Assembly: GCA_022410635.1 (NCBI GenBank)
Contig: JAJVDF010000464.1
Location: forward strand, 570,181 to 634,180
Source: Tretioscincus oriximinensis
Lineage: Eukaryota > Chordata > Lepidosauria > Squamata > Gymnophthalmidae
Direction of reading: 5' to 3'
DNA length: 64,000 nucleotides
Position 1 is the stretch's first letter; each line of letters opens with the position of its first letter. Shown here one piece after another: positions 630-62,573 of the stretch. The notes under the pieces were generated by a model. It did not search any database. It saw nothing but the letters and a program-made list of their open reading frames with translations, and was not told the origin of the DNA. The position numbers and the translations under genes were made by a program.

Positions 630-3600
630 TCTCTTTCTCCTACTGTGTAGAAATGACCATGAGCTTCCAAAAAGGGAAGGGTAGTAATAATGGGAGACTT
701 CAACTATCCATGCATCGATTGGGCAAACTCTTGTTCAACTGATGAAAAAGAAATAAAATTCTTAGACATGCTGATTGCTTCCTACAGCACGTGGTTTTTA
801 AGAACTAACCAGAGGCAAGGGAATCCTGGATTTAGTCCTAAGTAATGAACAGGACCTGATACAAGATGTGTAACTGTAACTGATCCAATAGGAAACAGTG
901 GTCACAATACAATAACTTTCAACTTGAATGTGGATAGAAAATTGTCAAGCAGTTCTAACACAGAAACCTTCAACTTTCACAAAGGAAATTTTCCCAAAAT
1001 GAGGAAAATGGTAAAANGAAAATTAAAAGGGAAAGTCCAGTCCCTTCAAAAAGCGTGGGAATTGTTTGCAAATACAATATTGGAAGCTCAAAAAATGCAT
1101 TCCCAAGAGAAAAAAGGGTCTCGTCAAGTCTAAGAAGACACCCATAGGGCTCATCTCTGCAGTAAGGGAAGTTATTAGAATGAAGAGAAACTCATTTAAA
1201 AAGTGGAAGGCTTATCCTAGTGAGAACAGAAGGCAGCACAAACTATGGCAAACCTAATGCAAAGTGGTAGTCAGGGATGCGAAGAAAAACGTTGAGGATT
1301 ACATTGCAAAGAATATTAAAAGAAATGGGTGGGGGAGGATAAGGGAAGGAGAAAGGTGAAGACAACGAAGTGATAATAAATGAAAATATTAAACATAACA
1401 AAGGATAAAATTATGGTTTAACTAGATAAGAAAAGACAAAGATAAGTATAGGTATGTAGATGTATGTATGTATAAACTACATAAGAGATGTGAATATGTT
1501 ACAAAAATAAATATGCCTATCTCCTTGAGGGTGAGAGGGTGAGGGAGAGAGGGTGAAAGGGTGGGGATTGAGTTAATACATGTGTATGTTTTGTTTTCTG
1601 TTATAAAAAACAAAAAACTAAATAAAAATAATAAAAAAAAAGAATATTAAAAGAAATAATAAGGACTTTTTCAAATACATCAGAAATAAGAATCCTACGA
1701 GGAAAACAGTCACACCACTAGATAGCAGTGGACAAAAGAGCATAATCAAGGAGGACGTGGATATTGCAGAAAGGTTAAATGAATTTTTTGCTTCAATTTT
1801 CACCAAAGAAGACAGAGGAAATTTACCCGCAACAGATTTAGTCTTCTCAGAAAGAACACCAGATGAATAAAACTGGATAGAGATAACAAGGGAGGAGGTC
1901 CTTGCTAGCCTTAATAAGCTGAACATTATTAAAAAGCTGAATAAATCCCCAGGGCCAGACAGCTTTCACCCAAAAATTCTTAAAGAACTTAAATGTGAAA
2001 TTGCTGAACTTCTAACTAAAATATTTAATCTTTCCTTAAGATCAGGCATAGTACCAGTAGATTGGAGGGTAGCTAACGTAACACCAATCTTCAAAAAAGG
2101 ATCCCTGAAATTATAGGCCCATCAGTTTAATATCAGTTCCAGGTAAAATGTTGGAAACCATAATTAAGGAAAAAAATTATTAAANACGTATTTCGGAATG
2201 AAACTCAGCATGGCTTCTGCAAAGGTAAATCATGCCTTACTAACTTGCTAGAACTCTTTGAGAGTGTTAACAAACATGTAGATAAAGGGGATCCAGTTGA
2301 TGTTGTCTATCTAGATTTTCAGAAGGCGTTTGATAAAGTCCCTCATCAAGGGCTTCTAAAAAAACTCCATACTCATGGTATAAGAGGACAGACTTTGCCC
2401 TGGATTGGAAACTGGCTAAAAGATAGAAAACAGAGGGTAGTAACAAATGGACAGTTCTCTGAGTGGAAAGAGGCAAGAAGTGGGATACCCCAGGGGTCTG
2501 TACTCGGACCTTTGTTTTTCAATAAATTCATAAACAATCTGGATGCCGAGGTAAATAGTGAAGTAGCCAAGTTCACTGACGACACTAAACTGATCAGGGT
2601 AGTGAAAACTGAAAATAATTGTAAGGCACTCCAGAGTGATTTATTGAAATTGGGTGAGTGGGCATCAAAGTGGCAAATGCACTTCAATTTAAGTAAGTTC
2701 AAAGTCATGTACATTGTTGCAAAGAACCCCAATTACTCCTACCACCTGATGGGATCCAAGCTTTCTGTGACCGAGCAAGAAAAGAATCTTGGGGTGTTGG
2801 TGGACAATTCAATGAAGATGTCAATCCAGTGTGCAGCAGCAGTAAAAAAGGCAAATTCTATGTCGGGGATAATTAGGAAAGGAATCGAAAACAAGTCAGC
2901 AAATGTTGTTTTGCCTCTTTATAAATCTGTAGTGAGGCCACATTTGGAATACTGTGTTCAGTTCTGGTCACCACATCTCAAGAGGGATATTGTGGAACTA
3001 GAGAAGGTGAAGAAAAAGGCAACAAGAATGACCAAGGGTCTGGAGCACCTCCCTTATGAAGTCAGGCTGCAACATCTGGGCCCCTTCAGCCTCGAAATCT
3101 GATGTTTGAGTGGTGATCATTCATGGGATGGAAAGGGTGAATAGAGAAAAATGTTTTCTCTATCACAGAACACTAGGACCAGAGGGCACTCCTTAAAACT
3201 AATGGCCAGAAAAGTGAGAACAGACAAAGGAAAGTATTTTTTCACCCAGAGGGTCATCGGCCTGTGGAATTTACTTCCTGAAGAGGTGGTGGTAGCTAAT
3301 AATTTGGATAGCTTCAAGACAGGACTAGACAGGTTTATGGACACCAAGGGTATAAATGGGTACTAGGATGGATGGATGGATGTTGCCTCCGGGATGGAGC
3401 AACAGGCAGGACTCCTGAAATAACATTTGCAGGGTGTCATGAACAGGTGCATATTTTGCTTTCCCCTGTTTGGACTACCCATGTGCATCTGGTGGGCCTC
3501 TGTGTGAGACAGATGGGCTCTGGCCCAACCCAATATGGCTCTTCTTATATTCTTATGACCTAGGATGGATGTCTTGTTACTGCCTCCAAGATGGAGCAAC

Positions 3601-11000: not shown

Positions 11001-14000
11001 GCAGGGAGTCATGAACAGGGGCATATTTTGCTTTCTTCTGTTCAGACTGCCCAGGTGCATCTGGTGGGCCTCTGTGTGACACAGAATGCTGGACTTGATG
11101 GGCTCTGGCCTGATCCAGTATGGCTCTTCTTATGTTCTTATGAGGCTCATTGTTATGCCTCATTGGCACAGTGTTACTATGCAAAGTGCTTAAAGGCTTC
11201 AGTATTTCAACAGAGATACCAGAATTCAATACCTAAGCATTGGCCGTAGAGAGGGGTGAGCATTAACTCAGCTGTCGAAAGCAAATGCAAGTAGATAAAT
11301 GGGTACCACTAAATGGGTTCCCAAAAGGTAGTGGGCAAGATAGAATAGATGTAAGTCTTCGTGCGAAAATAATCTTGTATCGGGTGAGAAGGGCAGGGTA
11401 CAAAAACAAAATTATTATTATTATTATTCCTCTTCTTCTTCCTCTTCATCTTCTTCTTCCATAGTCTTGCAAGAGAACTGCAGTATCCTAAAGAGGAGCG
11501 CAACATTCCATTTTAACTTTTTATATATAAGGATGCTCGGATTTGTCTCCTTGTACAATTTTTGCACTGAGGAGCATTTGGCTTATACAAAGCTGTACTC
11601 ACCACAGCTGGAAGCTGGCTGCCTGAGTTGAGTCACAGAAGTCGATGCCCATGACTACATTGACCGTTTCACCGGCTGCCAAGGACTCTGCAAACACAGG
11701 AGAAAAGATTCCTAGCGAGTCATGAGTTGTACGGGTGGGGAGAAAAATTAATGCTGAATTTGAATTTGGGCATTGTACATAGCTTTGGGCTTTTTACTGA
11801 TGTATCGCAATACATTAGAATATCATGGAAAAGTTATATTTATGGAAAAGAAATATTTATTTCAATAATTAAATTCAAATAGCAAAATCCATATATTACA
11901 TAGATACATTGCATACAGAGAGATCTGTTTCAACCATTTATTTATTTGATTAGAGTGTAACACAATCAGTCTACATATAGAACTTTCTCACAATATTCTA
12001 ATTTTCTGAGAAACTAACTTTTGGGTTTTCATTGCCCGTAAGCCACAATCATCAACATTAAATGCTAGAAATAAATCACTGTCTGGATATTTGCGGCACC
12101 ACTAGCCTGATTAGTNTAAAAAGATATCCTGGTTAGGGGTTCTTCATATGGTTATATGTGGATCCATATATGTGTTTCATTGTTTTAATTGAATTACTGA
12201 AATAAATTCACTTTCCCATGATATTCTAATTTATAGAGATGAGCTAGTACATTTTTCACTCAATGTCTTCTCCAGCTTACACATTGTATCAGTAAGCCAT
12301 CTATCAACTCTCCACTGTCCCAAACTAAAATAATACAGATGAAGTCTACAACAAAATGCTGGAGTATAGTTAGAATTTCCAGGCTATACCAACTCTGCTA
12401 CAACTCCTCCCCTCATCTCCAATAGTCAATTATTAGTCCTGGCTGGAAAGTTCCTGCATGTTAAAGGTTTTACTTTATCTTTACAAAGTTTATANCTTGC
12501 TTGAAAAAAAGCCATTTGGTACACACAGGCTACAAGCTCAAAACGACGCAGGGGTTACTATAAATACCCAGGGGAACCACTGTTGTGTTGCAATGATACT
12601 TGTTTACTATCTTGCCCAACCCTAAGATAGCCGTGGGAAGTCTGGGGCACAAGGCAGCTTACAAAACCTTCTGTTCTTCTCTTCACAACAGACTCTTGTG
12701 AAACAGGTGGGGCTGAGAGATCTCCGAAGAACTGTGATTAATCCAAGGTCCCCCAGCTGGCTTNACGTAAGAGTGTGGAATCCAACTGCGAACTACTCTA
12801 ACCACAAGAACAGATTGGCTCTCCAATTGGGCCATGCCATGCTCAGCATGACCACCAGGGCTTTAAATGGCCCAGGGAAGAGCAGTTAGTTCCTAAATCC
12901 CCCCTTGCACTTGCTTACACATGCCCTACCGATTTCCTTGAACTCCTGGATACGCATGCCTGACAGCAGCTTGGGCTCATTAACACGGATGTTCTTCACC
13001 TCCGCAGCCGTGTTGTTAGAGAACTGGATCTGTACAGCTACCATGCGAGTGTCAGAGGTAAAAGGCTGGCGGCTGAAATGATACTCAACGGAAAGTCCTT
13101 CTCCGGTCATTCGATGCAGCAGCTCGTATGTCTTAACTGTCCCAAATGCAGGATTGATCAACTGCAGATAGAAGCAAATGGGAGGGGCAAAAAGGCATAA
13201 ACGGTACTGTTTATGTAAGCATTTCCCCAGCGTTTTGCTACACTGTTATCTATGTTCTATTTTAATGGTACTTTAGTGTTCTTGATAATTAATTCATAAA
13301 CTGCTTATAAATTCCTCTTGTAATGCACAGCTCTGCTCTTATCCCGTTATTCAGAAGTGCTCTTTTCCTTTTGCCGTGTGGGTACTTCTCCAATGAAGCA
13401 ATTTGCAGAAAACTATCGTTTCTGAAAACGGGACTGAGTTCAGTTCTAAAGCAAATGACTTGTATTAGTGGAAATATATTCTAGCATGCATTAGCCTTAT
13501 CTTTAACAACAGCAACAGCAACAAAGCGAGGTTTGGAATAGCCAGATCTGAACCTAATTAAAATCCTTGAAACCAAAGGTTGATCTCAGATCANTTGCTA
13601 TTTCCTAGCAAAACTTATATCCTTCACTAGTTGGTTTATAGTTAGTGATCAGTATTCTTCGCCATATCACAAAACTTTACGTTCCTTCAGCTGTTAAAAT
13701 GAGTTGGGAGGAGGGGGAAGAAGAGGAAGAAGAAGAGGAAGAAGAGGAAGATTTCCTTAAGATCAGGCATAGTACCAATAGATTGGAAGGTAGCTAATGT
13801 AACACCAATCTTCAAAAAAGGATCCCGGGGTGATCCCGGAAATTATAGACCAATCAGTTTAACATCAATTCCAGGTAAAGTGTTGGAAACCTTAATTAAG
13901 GACAAAATTACTAAACACATGGAGAAGCATGCATTGCTGAATGAAACTCAGCATGGCTTTAGCAAAGGTAAATCATGCCTTACCAACTTGCTAGAATTCT

Positions 14001-17000
14001 TTGAGAATGTAAACAAACATGTAGATAAAGGGGATCCAGTTGATATTGTGTATCTAGATTTTCAGAAGGCGTTTGATAAAGTCCCTCATCAAGGGCTTCT
14101 AAAAAAACTCCATACTCATGGTATAAGAGGACAGACTTTGTCCTGGATTGGAAACTGGCTAAAAGATAGAAAACAGAGGGTAGTATTAAATGGACAGTTC
14201 TCTGAGTGGAAAGAGGTAAGAAGTGGGGTACCCCAGGGATCTGTACTGGGACCCTTGCTTTTCAATATATTTATAAATGATCTGGATGCAGAGGTAAATA
14301 GTGAAGTAGCCAAGTTTGCTGACGACACTAAACTGTTCAGGGTAGTGAAAACTGAAAATGATTGTAAGGCACTCCAGAGTGATTTATTGAAATTGGGTGA
14401 GTGGGCATCAAAGTGGCAAATGCACTTCAACTTAAGCAAGTGCAAGGTCATGCATATTGGGGCAAAGAACCCAAAATACTCCTACCACCTGATGGGAACC
14501 AAACTTTCTGTGACCGAGCAAGAAAAGGATCTTGGGGTGTTAGTGGACAATTCAATGAAAATGTCAACCCAGTGTGCAGCAGCTGCAAAAAAGGCAAATT
14601 CCATGTTGGGGATAATTAGGAAAGGAATCGAAAATAAGTCAGCAAATGTTGTTTTGCCTCTTTATAAATCTGTGGTGAGGCCACATTTGGAATACTGTGT
14701 CCAATTCTGGTCACCACATCTCAAGAGGGATATTTTGGAACTGGAGAAGGTGCAGAAAAGGGCAACAAAAATGATCAAGGGTCTGGAGCACCTCCCTTAC
14801 GAAGCAAGGCTGCAACGTCTGGGCCTCTTCAGCCTTGAAAGGAGACGTTTGAGGGGTGATCTGATTGAAGTGTACAAAATCATGCATGGGATCGACAGGG
14901 TGAATAGAGAAAAAATGTTTTCTCTATCACACAACACAAGGACCAGAGGGCACTCCTTAAAACTGTTGGGTAGAAAAGTGAGAACAGACAAAGGGAAGTA
15001 TTTTTTCACCCAGAGGGTCATCGGCCTGTGGAATTTACTTCCTGAAGAGGTAGTGGTAGCTAACAGCTTGGATAGTTTCAAGACAGGACTAGACAGGTTT
15101 ATGGACACTAAGGGTATAAATGGATACTAAGATAGTTGTCTGGATGTAGCCTCCGGGATGGAGCAACAGGCAGGACNTTTGAAATACCATTTGCAGGGAG
15201 TCACGAACAGGAGCAGCATATTTTGCTTTCCTCTGTTCGGACTGCCCAGGTGCATCTGGTGGGCCTTTGTGTGACACAGAATGCTGGACTCGATGGGCTG
15301 TGGCCTGATCCAGTATGGCTCTTCTTATGTTCTTATGTTCTTATGACTTAGAGTTGGCTTTCCTCAACCCTAAGGGAATCAAAGTGGCTTCTGAAGTAGA
15401 TGGGGTTGAGTGAGCTCCAAAAAACTGTGATGGCCTCATGGAGGAGTGCAGAACTGAACTGGGAGGCCACCAGATAAGAGACAAGTAATGCACTGAGCAG
15501 GGAGTTGGAGCCTATGACCCTGGAGATCACTTCCAACTCTATGAATCTATGATTCTGGCCCTCTAACCACAACACCACTTAGGCCACTTTGAATGTTTTA
15601 AGGAAAAGATGATCATATAGGCAAATAGGTAAGAAGGACAAATGACATACTGCAGTTGCTAAAGATGTTTCAGTCAGGGTGAGTCCTTCGAGGTCAGTCA
15701 CAAGGCTGGAGGAGACTACAGGGCTGGTGGCAACTGGCTGTGGAGGCGGAGACGTGACTGCCAAGCAAAGAAAGTAGGAAATGAGGAGCTTGTATCTTCA
15801 AAACTCATAAATGTTCTTTTGTTTTATCAAAATTGCCTCTGTGATGGCTGGGGAGGTAAACAATTCACATGGTGCTGGGCATACAATTTATAAAATTGTT
15901 CCACATATGAAAAATACAATTCTCATGCTCATATTCCTTTTAAGTGTGCTTTAAAAATTCGGTACCATACTGAAAAACCAAGAGTTTAATTTTCTTGCAG
16001 TTCTGTGCTGTTCTACTTGGTGCTGCAATAAAAAGACTAAGGCTGCATCCACACATCACTTTTATACTACTACCGTAGTGGAATATTCCGCAATAAAGCA
16101 TTGTGTGGACTGGGTTTTTTTCCAGAATATCCATGTTTTATTAGAATGCTTTAGTGGAATAAGTAAGTGATGTGTGGATGCAGTCTAAATTTTTTAAGGC
16201 AGCCTTCTGATTCAATGTTCAAAATTTAATAAACTTCTGCATAGTCTTCTCATAGACTGAAAGGAAAGAACTTTGAAGTAAAACAGCTGCTTCTACTATG
16301 AAAATGTATTGTGCAATCACAGAGCATGAAGGCAAAATCATTCCAGGCCAGAAGGAACCCTTCAGCACCATGGACAGCTCCCACATAACTATTACGTGGA
16401 TCTAACCAGATGATCCCTTTTTGTGGAGGAACCCAGTTTGGGGGTGTCTACCCTGCCCTCCCAGGGAGTGAGATTTTCCCATTTTTTGCTGAAAATCACT
16501 TTAAAAAAATCACTGCACCACCACTAGGGGGCTCTGGCAACCAGGGCCAGCTTCTGAAGGATCCCTCCCCTCAATAAAAAAATTAAAAATGCAAATTTCT
16601 CATGCACTTAAATAAATTCTCATGCACTTCAAAAATAAATTTGATTTTTTTTAAAAAAAACAAATTCACTGCACTACCATTAGAGTGCACTGGCAACCAG
16701 GGCCATCTCCTGCAGGCATCCTCCCCTCAGTAAAAAAAATAAACAAATGCAAATTTCTCACACTTTCAAAATTCTCATACACTTAAAAAAATTCTCACAT
16801 GCTTCGNAGATTTATCAGGTGGGGATTTCGGAGGGGTATGCATGTTGGTGGGTGATTTGCATACTCATGAATATGCAAATTAGAATGAATATTAATTACC
16901 CCAGTTTGGGCCTCAGAAAATTTGGTCAGTCTATATTACATGTCCCTGAAATTAAGTCCTACCTTGAAAATAAGCCGTAGGATGATTTTTCAGGACACTC

Positions 17001-26000: not shown

Positions 26001-29000
26001 AAACTCAGTGATTTTTGTAGCGGCAGAATCTGCCAGTGCAGTGGTTGGGTGGTGGGAAGAGCATGGTTGGGACATGACTGAGACGTGGTTGAGGTGGGAC
26101 TGCAAATTATGACCTGGACTTTGAATCTTGGATTATGGCAACCTTAACAGCAAGACAATGTAAAACAAAAAGCATCACTGCAACCCCACAATCACCACCT
26201 CTACTGGCTCGCCAAGGAGCCCAATGTGGCTGTCCAGAGGGCCAAGTGATTCCGCCTGGGGGAAAGAAACAGTAGTGTGTGAGAGACTTTCAACACAACA
26301 ACGAAGCAGATCATACCTTTAAATTCTATAGTCTGCAGCAATGCTCTGGTAACCACCATTAAAACATGGTGGACATGGACCCTAACAGGGAAGTCCATTT
26401 CATAAATGTGTCAGAGCTGCCCACACTTTTGGAATTCTTACTTCCTGTCCCATGGGACTAGGAGAAAAGGAAGTACCTCCACGTTGCGCACAGATGGGTC
26501 TGGTGCTTCACTGGGCCAGTCTGGGAGTTCCTGGTAGCCCACAGCCTTGGCGTTGAGGAGATGGGAGAGGGAACCAAGTTGGAAGTGATCACGATCTAGA
26601 AGGAGGAAAGACTCTGCTGGGTCGAGTTTTAACTGAACCCCCAAAGTCATTGTAACAAAATTTATAGACTAAAGGAGACAGATAAAAACCCATCACTTTC
26701 ACAAAGCTATTTATGGTTTTGTTCTGCAAATACTCAAGTTCCTGGGTAAACCAAAGCATTTACGTTTGATTCAGCAGGATTTTTTTTGTGATGCTAACCT
26801 TTGAAAGACGATTCCAAGATTGGAGCAGGTTTTTGTGCCAGGAAGAGCTTCTTAGCATACTTGTTGAGGGCACCGCTCTTCTCAGTGGGCACGATGAGTT
26901 GGCGGATAAAACGAGCGCGATCCCGGATATCGTAGTTCTGGTCGTACTTGGCTAAGTTCAGCACATATTGGGTCAGCAGTTTACTCTGTGGCAGAGAATA
27001 CAAGAGCATGTGGCAAAGCAAAATGGAGAAACCGAGTACAAGAAGAAAAAAAAATCTGGTTTTTATACATCTCCGTTTCTCACCCGAAGGGACTCAGAGT
27101 GGCTTACAAGGTTAATTTTCTCCCAAAGGCTTACATCTGTTCTATCTTCCCCACCATGTTAATGGTGGTATTAATTTATCTAATTGAAATATAGATTATA
27201 AATCTACTTTGTTTCAAATAGCTGAATTGGCTAAAGAGAGAGAGCTCTCCCCTCTCCACGTCCAACCCAGGACCTCGAAACCGGAATTCTCAGTTGAAAG
27301 ACCAGCTCTTAATCACTGCGCCATTCTTGCACATGGAGCGGTGAGGGAAAAAAGGGACACCCACCGAACCAGCCAGATCAGCCAAACCAACCCTGGTGGT
27401 CAATGGGGTGACAGATGTCACAGCCAAATCGCCCTCACATTCAGGCAAGTGAGCCCCACTGTACCGTTACGAGAAGCCGATCTTTTAAATTAAATTTAAC
27501 TACTTCTTGCATAATCTTTCTATAAATAAAGCCTGTCACGGCAATCAGGCCTTCGTCCAATCAGAGCGCCTGGAGGAGGGCACGTTATGCCTCCCACTCC
27601 TCTTTGCAAGCCTCAACAGGGCTGAAGTTGTGTTGAGTACAGAGGGGAAGCTCGGAGTCACCTTCCCTCACGGTCCCTTAGTAAGCGAGGTGCCAGGGCA
27701 AAGCCGGGACAGAGAAGGCAGCAGGATGCCGTGACCCCTCACCACCACTTTGACCGCCCCTTGGCAAACCAATGCCTTGCCATGTGCCAGCCACAACCAT
27801 GCTGGGGGGGGGGCAGGAGCCACCTCCCTCCATTGCCACTTCACTTGCCTTCCTAAGCCCACATTTGTGGGCTTGACCACTACTAGTTTACAATAAACAA
27901 GCAAAACAAGAAAGGAAAGATGATACAAAGGTTGTATGAATATGTAATGAATGTAACGGCACTAGAAATAGCAAATGTTATAATCAGCAATCCAGAAAAT
28001 ATATAGGGAAAAATAGACTGAACAAAAATGGTTAGTAGTAAAGAATTATATATTAGGTAGAAGAAGGAGTGATGTGGCAAAATTAAGATTAATATTTTGG
28101 ATGTAATCCTCTAGATCAGACCTGGGCATTGCACGGCCCCCGGGCCGCATACGGCCCTTTGATTGGCTCTGACCGGCCCATGTAACGTTAATTGGAGCGA
28201 CGGGGGGCTCCTCATAATGCATCCTCCCCTTCGCTTCCGGGCGATTCCTGGGCAGCCCTTGACGGCGGTGCTGGGGCTGATGCTGCTGGCTGCCTCCTGC
28301 CGGGCGCCGTCGCCTTCTCGCCCCTCTGGAGCCTACCTCAGCCGCCCTCGACGGGGCGCCCCGCTGCGGGGCCCAGGGGAGGCGGCCCTGCTGCGGGAAG
28401 GTCGCGCTGCCGCCACCGCGGGGGCAACTTCGGCACAAGCGCGGCTGCTCAGCACTTCCTTCGTGCTCAGAGGCGACGCCGCTCACAACCAGGCGATGGT
28501 GCACTGGACGGGCGAGAACAGCAGCGTAAGGGCCGCCGGTGGGATGGAGGAGGCGGAGGGGGGGATGTTCCCAGGGGAGGGGGGGGAGGGGGGCTGCCCC
28601 CCCTTCCACCCCGTCTCAAGATCTGTGGGTCTCCCTCGGGCAGCTTGTAGTGTTAGCCCAGACCTGGGCAAGGGGCGGCCTGCCTATTGTCTGACCGGCC
28701 CACCCATCTTAGCTCAGAGTTGGGGGTGTGGTTTTACTGTTATATACAGTACTGGGTAGAATTGAGTTAACTGTATTAGTCCGGCCCTCTAAAACCATCC
28801 CAATTTCTCATGTGGCCCCTTGGGAAAATTAATTGCCCACCCCTGCTCTAGATTGTAGAAGTACAGATAGCGAGTGGGGAGGATTCATGAAGGGAGAAGA
28901 AGGGGGGAATCCGAAATATGGCTGTACGTTTGTTTTAAATGTAATTATTGAATGGGACTATATACAAGACTGTAAATTCCCCGTGGTTCCAAACCTCTTT

Positions 29001-32000
29001 GCTAGATGCGCTTACCTGTTTGGAGTTGGTCAGGTAAAGCTTGGCTGCCAGGTTGATAATCTGCAGCTTCACAATGTCCTCCTCACTTGTAAAGGACTTT
29101 GCCATTTTGCGTAGAACATCAGGGGCAATCTTGGGCACGTGCTCACAGTATTCTCCAATCAACCACAGGATGCTGGCCCTGGCCATAGATATCTGAATGC
29201 AAGATGACACAGGAGTTCCTCAAGGCTTCAAAGGGTTTGATAAGGAGACACACAAAACCAGATCTCAAATCCGAAACAAACACAACAGAGCCAAAATCCC
29301 CCCAAATTCCAGATTATCAGAAAAAAATTATTTGCGTCTCTACATACATACAATGATATAATATCAGATAGGTAATAAAATCATTAATAAAATAGAAGCA
29401 GCCTCCAAATATAGTCAACAGTGTTTTTGTCCAACTTCCTAAATACCAAATATGCGAATACTGGATCCTGTGGTTTGTGGACATGATGGTATAATATTGA
29501 CTTCCAGCTGACACATTTCAACATATGGTCTTTCTCAAGACTATAAAATCTCAAGTCAAACATCAGAAAAGCCCAATACAATAGTTTATTCCACAATGGA
29601 ACACGCCAGCTGGAAGTGAACATTGTACCATCATATCCACAGATCCACAGCATCCATATTTGCATATTGGATATTTTGGTTTTATTTAGTCTCCAAAACA
29701 CACTAAAGATCCTTCTGTATACTGTTGACATTATTTGGAGACTGTGCTAAGTGGTCCTATTTTGATGGATGGATGCATGGACGGATGGATAGATGGATAG
29801 ATAGATGGATGGATAGATATTTTCTATACTTTTTTTTCTGATAATCCAGAATTTTTTGGATTTTGGCTTTGATAAGGAGCCTCCCAGAACCCTCACAAAT
29901 ATCAGAGGATTCCTTAGGGAATTCCCATGAGCCCCTAGCAGAGCCTTTTGGGATCACTATTTTCAAAGGCTAAAGGCTAGGAAAAGCTATTCTCCATGCT
30001 CTGCCACTTGGGAGGCCGTACCTGGATATTGTCTATCAGCTTTGCCATGTGCTTGATGATCTCACTATGTTGTGAGGGCTGCATCTGTAGGAGTTTCTTA
30101 ATTACCACGACTGATTCGGCTACCACCAGNTCTACAAAGGATGAACAAAGGAAGAGCTCAACATTACACATGTGGGCAGTTCAGTTTACTTCCCAGAACT
30201 CCAGCTGCACTATAACAGAAGTCTATCTTGCCCCACGGATTAACTATATAGGATATTCAAACCTGTAACACTGCTAAATTGGTGGCTTCAGATCTCTGAC
30301 TGAATAACTGTTAACAAACAGGCTCAGATCTTTCATAACAATGCCTCAAGGAATTTGAAGGGTAAATTGAGCATCTACAGGCCAAAGCGCAAAGCAACCT
30401 CTGCCCACCTTGTGCTAGCTGAAATTTATTGATTTATTTATATATTTGTGTATTTAGTTGATTAGTTGCATTTTTAGTCCGCCCTATACTCAAAGTCTCA
30501 GGGCTAACAATAAAACAGTTACCATGAAAGCAATATTACTGTGAAATAAGGAAGAGAGGGCTTCTACTTTTAATTCCCATTAGCTGCATACAAACTGCAC
30601 TCTTAAACATGGTTGCTTCCAGTGTGTGTGTGTATGTGTGCATGTATGTGAAGGCTAGGGGAGGGGAGGAGGGTGTGGAGTTTTCAAGTAACGTAAATAG
30701 TTGTGAAGAGGTTACGCTAAGATGGTTTTTGTCAAGAAGAAGAACTGCGTTCTTATACCCTGCTTTTATCACCTTACAAAGGGACTCAAAGCGGCTTACA
30801 AGGGTATTATTGCCCAAGGCTGACAGTCTATCTTCCCCACCAGGCCATGGTGGTTCCCATGTATCTACTTGCAGTCAGTTGCAATTTCTTGCAATTCATG
30901 CTTTCTAATAGCTGGGTTGGCTAGAGCTACAGGTTAGTGGAAGGTGCTCACCCCTCCCCACGTCCGACACAGGGCTTCGAAACCTCATCTCCCAGCTGAG
31001 AGACGGATTCTTTAGTGACTGAGCTATCCGTACCTCCTAACCGTCAAGTAATGTTAAGTTATGAGAAGTTGTGTTATGCAATATAATGCAATTTATATAT
31101 GCAATAAACAACAGATTAAAACAATATATACTGCTCAAAACAATTAAGGGAACACTTAGTGTTACACTGTTATATGAACGTGTTCTCTTAATTGTTTTGA
31201 GCAGTACATATATAGTGATGTTCTCATATATATATNAGAACATCACTATATGAGTTAAGTGCCTCTTCACTATAAAATTTCCATTATAAATTGCTGTTGT
31301 GTGACCTGAAACAAATAACCGTCACAATGTATACAAAGAGTTATTGTGTGCTCTACTTAAGATTTCCAGTAACCTAGAAAAGAAAATCTAGCCTTCCAAC
31401 TTCAACTTCAGGAATACAACTAGCAAAGTGAAGTGCTTTACAGCCTGCAGATGAACAGTGTAACTGTAAAAAAAGAAAAAGTAAGAGCGCTTCCCAGAGC
31501 GGGGTTCTCACCATCTCGGTTGGACAGCAGTTGGACAAGTCCGTTAAGACAGGTGTCACGTACTTTGCCAATGTTGGTGGCACATCGGCCAATGGCCTGT
31601 ATGGTGGCTGCCACAAAGTCCTTGTCCATGCTCCGGATGTAGGTCTATGGATAGAACGAGAAGAACGCAAAACGTCTACAGCAGTTCATAAAATGAATGC
31701 AGCCAGATTCTGTGTTACAAGAGCTTGCGAACCAGCTTCTGTTTACTTACCTCTTTCCTTCCTTTCGATTTCAGAGAAATGGCTGTGTTAAGTCTTAGTA
31801 GAAAAAGTCCAGCAGGGGGGCTGGCAGCACTTGGAGACTAACAGGAGAAAGGTAGGTGGCATGATGCACTGAAGAAGTAGACATGTCTCNGAAAAGCTCG
31901 TGCCACCTACCTTTCTCCTCTTAGTCTCCAAGGACTACAAGCCCCCTTGCTGGACTTCTGACCTTTTGGTCAGCTCTGCACCTATCCTTTCACTCCTCCA

Positions 32001-60552: not shown

Positions 60553-62573
60553 AAGAACATAAGAAGATAAGAAGAGCCATCCTGGATCAGGCCAGAGCCC
60601 ATCAAGTCCAGCATTCTGTGTCACACAGAGGCCCACCAGATGCACCTGGTGTGGCGTCCTCCATTTTGAGGTTTGTGTTTCTTTTATAAACTTAGCAGAT
60701 ATCCCAGAGGGAGGGGGCATGGCTGGAGGAGCCAGCCAATGGGGCCTCGAGTAGCCAGCTGGTGAGCGGTTAAAAGGGAAGCTGACCAGGGCTAGAGGCC
60801 TTTCTGTCGGGGACTTGTGGTGTAGCAAGTGGACAGAGGGCTCCGCTTCTGATCTGCCTCAGAGGGAGGGGGTGGAAGGTTATGGTGGCCTGGAAGAGTC
60901 AAAGTTGAGGCTTGACTTGGGGCTGGAACAAATAAAGTGACACAGGGCCTGTCTCTTGAAGGATCTGGAAACTAATGTTGCACTTGCTTGGTGTGTGTGT
61001 GCTTGAGTCAGGCTTACTTGATAAAAGCCGAAGCTTTATTATTCTAATCTTTCTTCTATTCCTTGTTTGTAAATAATAAACTTGTTATTTGTTTCATTTC
61101 AAACATCTCTTTCTTTCTTTTATTTCTGTAACGACAAAATTAAGCAGGCTACTGGTGGGGGCTGTGAATAAAGCCCTCATCCTGAGGTAAACTCTGAGGC
61201 CTTGTGTAGGCCGGAGGATAGTACTGTTGCTCCAAGCAGTCGTGGGTGCTGGATTGGGCAACAGGGTGGATATTGTGGCACCCCTGACTGTGAGGGTCAT
61301 CGAATAGTAGGGCCCTCAGGTAGGGGGCGCCACACCTGGGCAGTATGAAGAGGAAAGCAAAATATGCTCCTGTTCATGACTCCCTGCAAATGGTATTTCT
61401 GGAGTCCTGCCTGTTGCTCCATCCTGTAGGCAACATCCAGACATCCATCTTAGTATCCATTTATACCTTTGGTGTCCATAAACCTGTCTTGAAACTATCC
61501 AAGCTGGTAGGTACCACTACCTCTTCAGGAAGTAAATTCCACAAGCCGATGACCCTCTGGGTGAAAAAATACTTTCCTTTGTCTGTTCTCACTTTTCTAC
61601 CCAACAGTTTTAAAGAGTGCCCTCTGGTCCTTGTGTTGTGTGATAGAGAAAACATTTTTTCTCTATTCACCCTGTCCATCCCATGCATGATTTTGTACCC
61701 TTCAATCAGATCACCTCTCAAACGTCGCCTTTCAAGGCTGAAGAGGCCCAGATGTAGCAGCCTGAATAAGGGATTCTGCTCCAGACCCTTGATCATTTTT
61801 GTTGCCCTTTTCTGCACTTTCTCCAGTTCCCCAATATCCCACTTGAGATGTGGTGACCAGAACTGAACACAGGATTCCCAATGTGGCCTCACCACAGATT
61901 TATAAAGAGGCAAAACAACATTTGCTGACTTGTTTTCGATTCCTTTCCTAATTATCCCCAACATGGGATTTGCCTTTTTTGCTGCTGCTGCACACTGGGT
62001 TGACATTTTCATTGAATTGTCCACCAACACCCCAAGATCCTTTTCTTGCTCGGTCACAGGAAGCTCTTGGTTCCCATCAGGTGGTAGGAGTAGTTGGGGT
62101 TCTTTGCCCCCATGGGCAGGACTTTGCTCTTGCTTAAGTTGAAGGGCATTTGCCACTTTGATGCCCACTCACCCAATTTCAATAGATCACTCTGGAGCGC
62201 CTTACAATCCTTTTCAGTTTTCACTGCCCTGAACAGTTTAGTGTCGTCAGCAAACTTGGCTACTTCGATATTTACCTCGGCATCCAGATCATTTATAAAT
62301 ATATTGAAAAGCAAGGGTCCCAGTACAGATCCCTGGGGTACCCCACTTCTTACCTCTTTCCACTCAGAGAACTGTCCATTTAATACTACCCTCTGTTTTC
62401 TATCTTTTAGCCAGTTTCCAATCCAGGACAAAGTCTGTCCTCTTATACCATGAGTATGGANTTTTTTTAGGAGCCTTTGATGAGGGACTTTATCAAAAGC
62501 CTTCTGAAAATCTAGATACACAATATCAACTGGATCCCATTTATCTACGTGTTTGTTAACACACTCAAAGAAT
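60553..62573 (-). pseudogene. CR1 LINE, split by a solo LTR
   Basis: Two frames cover the RT: 62054-62521 ([49 protein letters not shown]) and 61461-62168 ([33 protein letters not shown]). A frameshift lies near 62060-62165. The LTR at 60650-61334 sits in its 3' UTR. The 5' end is truncated at about 62573. Confidence 0.88.
60650..61334 (+). mobile_element. solo LTR, same family, copy 3, nested in CR1
   Basis: TGTGGCG...CGCCACA, 685 bp, is flanked by an exact 5-bp duplication CCTGG (60645-60649, 61335-61339). It splits a minus-strand CR1: removing the LTR and one CCTGG restores the CR1 text ...agatgcacctgggcagt. Its promoter and poly(A) signals are placed as in copies 1 and 2. Confidence 0.88.

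Follow-up and report, generated by a model that had tools for sequence, protein, structure and literature searches.

A dispersed hAT family enclosing SORCS2 exon 1 and its splice donor in the genome of Tretioscincus oriximinensis

Introduction

Plants supply the best-known cases of gene capture by cut-and-paste transposons. In maize, the ends of two neighboring hAT elements of the Ac/Ds system can cooperate in composite (macro-)transposition and carry the DNA between them. To our knowledge, Ac/Ds composites have been described as large rearrangements, and no small vertebrate family of scattered copies has been traced to one. A survey of 100 animal genomes reported 370 Pack-TIRs, of which just four were multicopy, a share that it states as 1.4% (PMC8277862). 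The same paper describes hAT-N8_XT of the western clawed frog, a non-autonomous hAT that holds part of the CAPSL 5'UTR. HelibatN3, a Helitron of Myotis, is described as an amplified element that carries the promoter, N-terminal codons, and splice donor of NUBPL and in principle traps downstream exons (PMC4778049). Mar, a Buster-group hAT MITE of Drosophila, is reported to make 8-bp nnnTAnnn duplications, to have short terminal inverted repeats (TIRs), and to include internally deleted copies; that description also supplies nnnTAnnn as the target criterion for Buster-type elements used below (PMC3517528). Among titles and abstract openings on SORCS2 and transposons, Pack-type elements, hAT gene capture, and Helitron/NUBPL, we found no account of a SORCS2-carrying hAT. 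Here we analyze one in a 64,000-nucleotide stretch of contig C464 of Tretioscincus oriximinensis, hereafter the window, and compare it with its relatives across the assembly.

Results

Anatomy of the element

Positions 28117–28845 of the window are a hAT insertion enclosing most of SORCS2 exon 1, which confirms the core of the original prediction: a hAT transposon with a captured SorCS receptor exon and its splice donor. The peptide match described below and the donor sequence both support it. The predicted exact 8-bp duplication is present as CTCTAGAT at 28109–28116 and again at 28846–28853, and it fits the family pattern nnnTAnnn. The element ends read CAGACCTGGGCA.../...TGCCCACCCCTG, with short, imperfect TIRs (CAGACCTGGGCA / CAGGGGTGGGCA) of the hAT kind; a CAG start is a feature of hAT TIRs. 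Helitrons are not known to make target duplications. A Helitron was ruled out by the TIRs and the 8-bp duplications, as the published description of that class leads one to expect 5'-TC and CTRR-3' ends without inverted repeats.

On the plus strand the element begins with an outer hAT left end of 63 bp (28117–28179) that is common to the short and long forms of the family, whose consensus sequences are identical there at 64/64 bases. Comparison of the same two consensus sequences shows that the next ~57 bp (28180–28237) are filler peculiar to the short form, standing where the long form has its ~380-bp upstream part and its true start. The open frame of 103 codons (28217–28525) joins a filler-derived start to SORCS2 exon 1, with a signal-like peptide and the N-terminal stretch to VHWTGENSS. 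The captured coding sequence proper covers 96 codons (28238–28525), and a catfish SorCS2 model stops at the same GENSS. The frame stands as predicted, as does the splice donor GTAAGG read directly after it (28526–28531), but the ATG at 28217 lies inside the filler and is not SORCS2's own start.

The donor opens what we take, with the parental locus not found, to be a fragment of SORCS2 intron 1 (28526–28658, plus strand). Its last eight bases (TGTTAGCC, 28651–28658) resemble a target site, and we read them as left over from a previous insertion of the inner element that follows. This inner hAT element of 187 bp (28659–28845, plus strand) runs from a second left terminus (28659–28702), present where it had been predicted, to the common right end (inverted TIR ~28832–28845). 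The element as a whole has 65% GC and a CpG o/e of 0.65, compared with 43% and 0.33 for the window, in agreement with the earlier description of its frame as CpG-rich. No transposase frame was found in the window element.

Copies across the genome

A nucleotide search of the species' own assembly (1.54 Gb, 2455 contigs) returned the window copy and 39 other places at 94–97% identity as the best 40 of 2294 candidates; 38/40 scored places spanned the whole 729 bp and the other two nearly did. The 2294 candidates are not justified as a copy number: a search with the SorCS2 N-terminal stretch, in which all 70 candidates were scored, gave 67 places, in a list that may be incomplete. Within it, 65 places had at least one end of the SORCS2-carrying hAT element and two (C930 and C64) were native first exons. 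Eight further places turned up only in the searches with the right or the upstream part described below (C615, C561, C184, C59, C464, C115, C759, and C17), and a hand tally across searches came to at least 73 related places in the genome, as the suggestion of other copies had anticipated.

We defined two-ended copies as those retrieved loci in which both ends were found by pattern with up to 4 changes. There were 66 distinct copies of this kind, 53 with an exact 8-bp duplication (the window copy among them), 9 with one mismatch, and 4 with more than one. Among the 53 exact duplications were 48 different 8-mers, which shows that the element moved after the capture. TA occupied positions 4–5 in 48/53, the Buster-type nnnTAnnn. 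Taken by itself CTCTAGAT is a common 8-mer, with 4 occurrences in the window vs 2 expected by chance; exact duplications in so many two-ended copies, most of them different, rule out a chance 8-bp repeat and show that the window insertion is real. The exon end with its GT was kept in 55/66 two-ended copies, and 13/66 had the upstream part. A host gene fragment is here enclosed by transposon ends, as in Pack-TIRs. The window copy is one member of a dispersed family, and the capture was not made at this site. Two copies on C1488 (L003 at 102117 and L020 at 113435) lie only 11 kb from each other in opposite orientation, and both are flanked by exact duplications of their own.

Long, short, and deleted forms

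The window copy is an example of the most frequent form observed, of ~730 bp. We queried the assembly separately with the right part (best 40 of 1700 candidates scored) and with the upstream part (16 candidates, 16 scored). The latter query recovered 16 places carrying all or part of the further ~380 bp upstream, which has 70% GC and a CpG o/e of 0.95; nearly all of the 396 bases searched were held by 14 of them and a part by two. Seven were complete long elements of 1.0–1.09 kb. The upstream part led into ATG GCG GGG... in frame with the exon in L071, L072, L077, L078, L080, L082, L083, and L084 (8/16 as printed), while the start was frame-shifted in L074 and L076 and was missed or misplaced by our script in the other six. 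From its sequence and position, the ~380-bp part is probably SORCS2 5'UTR/promoter. Promoter sequence had also been suggested for the window copy, but there the ~57-bp filler stands in its place, and promoter capture is probable only for the longer sister copies.

Beyond the shared left end, the 625 bases common to the short and long consensus sequences differed only at the last bases of the filler and by one gap; divergence was otherwise confined to consensus positions ~65–121. Two deleted forms were also found. One joins position 736 to 999 (L074, L078, L080, and L082). The other, of ~575 bp, joins 482 to 639 (L092, L096, L097, L099, L100, and L101) and keeps the exon and donor with loss of the inner left terminus. 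Each of the six ~575-bp copies is flanked by a separate duplication, exact in five and with one mismatch in the sixth, which shows that movement does not require the inner left end. A tree of the copies was unusable, as were the between-group distances, since the left ends of the long copies were misaligned (differing at columns 30–119 where ~65–121 would be correct) and support for the short clade was 0.33. The order of forms that we suggest, from long to short, comes from gene anatomy and not from the tree. One of the 736–999 deletion copies, L078 (C464:282195), shares its contig with the window copy, from which it lies ~316 kb away.

Identity of the captured gene

The end of the frame had been assigned to SorCS from its motif, and the searches agreed. 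Residues 64–103 of the peptide matched SorCS2 in the PDB (6ffy, which we take to be the mouse protein) at E 6e-12, and the sole other match up to E 10 was unrelated (E 1.1). With a 27-aa core the SorCS2 match was E 4e-11 and the next, a Sortilin-related receptor, was E ~0.9. The PDB matches contained no SorCS1 or SorCS3, so these scores alone do not separate the three paralogs. Two of the three database matches of the peptide carried a name, and both were SorCS2 (catfish models); one of these (P0002) has GENSS as its very last residues, as fits an exon border at this point. Scanned against Pfam, the peptide had a single match, which fell under the cut-off.

The paralogs within the same genome provided a further comparison. 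The element reads WTGENSS, as do 6ffy and catfish SorCS2, and the two paralogous native first exons on C930 and C64 read WSGHNSS, with 76% DNA identity to the element over 118 and 80 bases. These two exons evidently belong to SORCS1 and SORCS3, because C64 also bears two sets of VPS10 exons; the gene names are our assignment. We rejected SORCS1 and SORCS3 as the source, given the different motif and the 76% identity of their exons.

Host locus

An AP-3 complex beta exon of 59 codons (29016–29192, minus strand; borders read by eye) matched AP-3 beta-1 at E 1.4e-29. The element ends 171 bp from it, within the intron on the exon's 3' side, and since the AP-3 beta exon is on the minus strand the captured exon is antisense to the host gene. 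An antisense position in an AP3B2 intron had been predicted: the antisense position in an AP-3 beta intron stood, and AP3B2 and AP3B1 were not separated by the matches, which were named 'beta-1' or plain 'beta'. The window copy is probably inert in this intron. Elsewhere in the window, 27195–27442 (minus strand) matched Rfam 7SK at 116 bits, with 248 bases spanning all 331 positions of the model; this may be a retrocopy derived from 7SK close to the element. There were also several long reverse-transcriptase-like frames, e.g., 13880–15130 (plus), 2245–3102 (plus), and 61461–62521 (minus), which resemble CR1-type LINEs.

Inner terminus and origin of the composite

The second left terminus was readable in 46 of the 52 aligned copies, and in 42/46 TGTTAGCC directly preceded it. 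This 8-mer fits the Buster-type target nnnTAnnn, and TA made up only 3/423 dinucleotides in the captured part, TGTTAGCC included. Its persistence before the inner terminus indicates that a pair of hAT ends flanking SORCS2 exon 1 probably transposed as a single unit, in line with the original prediction for DNA between two neighboring hAT ends. A twin of TGTTAGCC on the right flank was absent in all 104 loci examined.

Considering the observed ends, target duplications, dispersed copies, captured exon with donor, and long and short forms together, we think it likely that a non-autonomous hAT family with Buster-type targets captured SORCS2 exon 1 along with upstream sequence, the donor, and ~130 bp of intron 1, after which it spread by ordinary cut-and-paste transposition. 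On this reading, SORCS2 intron 1 would have contained a 187-bp hAT element at TGTTAGCC, and a further hAT left end would have lain upstream of the SORCS2 start. Transposase may then have paired the outer left end with the right end of the inner element, in which case everything between moved as a composite. Internal deletions with filler DNA would later have yielded the ~730-bp form of the window, the ~575-bp form, and others, with the 730-bp form apparently spreading most.

The exon could instead have been copied into a hAT by template switching or gap repair (FoSTeST or gap filling, as modeled by Tan et al. 2021), with the inner left terminus as a by-product of repair. To account for the multicopy Pack-TIRs of animals, the published survey proposes FoSTeST (PMC8277862), and the ~57-bp filler and many internal junctions suggest that template-switch or gap repair did act later in this family. 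As an account of the capture itself it is possible but doubtful, since template switching does not explain why an intact nnnTAnnn 8-mer, the mark of an earlier insertion, should stand right before the inner terminus. Joint movement of two hAT ends around the exon remains the reading that we prefer.

Decay of the copies and possible function

We compared 40 short copies taken from the best-scoring matches, a sample biased to intactness, so the counts overstate how intact the family is. The frame was open in 27, GT was present in 35, GTAAG in 34, and frame and GT together in 24. Codon changes amounted to 102 synonymous and 187 non-synonymous (8 stops), where 112.5 synonymous, 217 non-synonymous, and 5.1 stops were expected from changes outside the frame. 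These values fit neutrality, and no selection on the captured peptide was detectable in the 40 short copies. Change from consensus was 0.9–1.8% by region at non-CpG sites and 6–8% at CpG sites, which are thus decaying as expected of methylated DNA. By these measures the copies look young and are evolving as passengers.

In principle, any copy could give a host gene a foreign start. Judging by structure, the long copies could each serve as a promoter/first-exon trap and the short copies each as a donor-bearing exon. A working cassette, in which sense copies start transcription at the SORCS2 promoter (long form) or have their signal-peptide exon spliced to exons of the host, would suit the joint survival of frame and GT in 24/40 short copies and the CpG-rich upstream sequence added by the long form, and HelibatN3, of like anatomy, is described as doing so (PMC4778049). 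We nevertheless regard it as rather unlikely, with codon changes that fit neutrality and CpG sites in decay.

Parental SORCS2 locus

A parental SORCS exon had been expected in the same genome. We searched for one, and no native SORCS2 exon 1 occurred among the 67 protein-search places or the 16 upstream-part places; the latter all start with the same hAT left end, so none of them is the parent. Later SORCS2 exons were located on C220, identified at E 1e-47 to 6ffy. With the parental exon 1 not found, we infer from the protein what was captured and in which genome. The plain reading of the missing native exon is an assembly gap at a GC-rich exon. A parental copy in the same genome serves as a working criterion for Pack-TIRs in the published survey and is not part of the nature of the element (PMC8277862).

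Capture in another species followed by horizontal transfer would also leave no parental exon here, and the recovery of later exons on C220 with no native exon 1 among the 67 places speaks for it; we consider it improbable, as assemblies easily miss a first exon rich in GC. The idea that the window feature is a native SORCS2 first exon or an ordinary pseudogene, and not part of a transposon, starts from real SORCS2 coding sequence with a donor but has a negligible chance of being correct, refuted as it is by many dispersed copies that share both ends and have separate target duplications. The adjoining AP-3 beta exon also speaks against it, as does the lack on C464 of any of the 12 VPS10-domain matches of a genome search; synteny with SORCS exons 2 onward had been named beforehand as what would refute the capture.

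Discussion

A vertebrate hAT family has kept a host coding exon with its donor through dozens of transpositions. This amounts to a natural experiment in exon shuffling, with one first exon in many insertions at known places and orientations, and the doubled terminus with its own target-site relic offers a direct test of how such capture begins. More speculatively, and judged from sequence, a composite of two hAT ends around a first exon might distribute cassettes of promoter, signal-peptide exon, and donor, with sense copies conceivably re-starting or re-addressing host genes, e.g., by supplying a secretory leader; we hold this idea only tentatively.

Each of the closest described systems shares part of this design. 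The SORCS2 element resembles Mar, as Mar has been described, in its 8-bp nnnTAnnn duplications, short TIRs, and internally deleted copies, but Mar derives from its own transposon whereas the interior of the SORCS2 element is a host gene (PMC3517528). Like hAT-N8_XT in the published account, it is a non-autonomous hAT with a host gene fragment that moved repeatedly and has distinct target duplications. The frog element is reported with three copies and a UTR piece, whereas the SORCS2 element has dozens of copies, a coding first exon, a donor, a doubled left end, and, in its long copies, a probable promoter (PMC8277862).

The cargo is most like that of HelibatN3, which has the same design and was likewise amplified. 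According to its description, HelibatN3 captured 6 codons, compared with about 100 in the SORCS2 element, most copies of which are without the upstream part. HelibatN3 is a Helitron without TIRs, whereas the SORCS2 element is a cut-and-paste hAT (PMC4778049). The element works like HelibatN3 but belongs with the Pack-type hATs.
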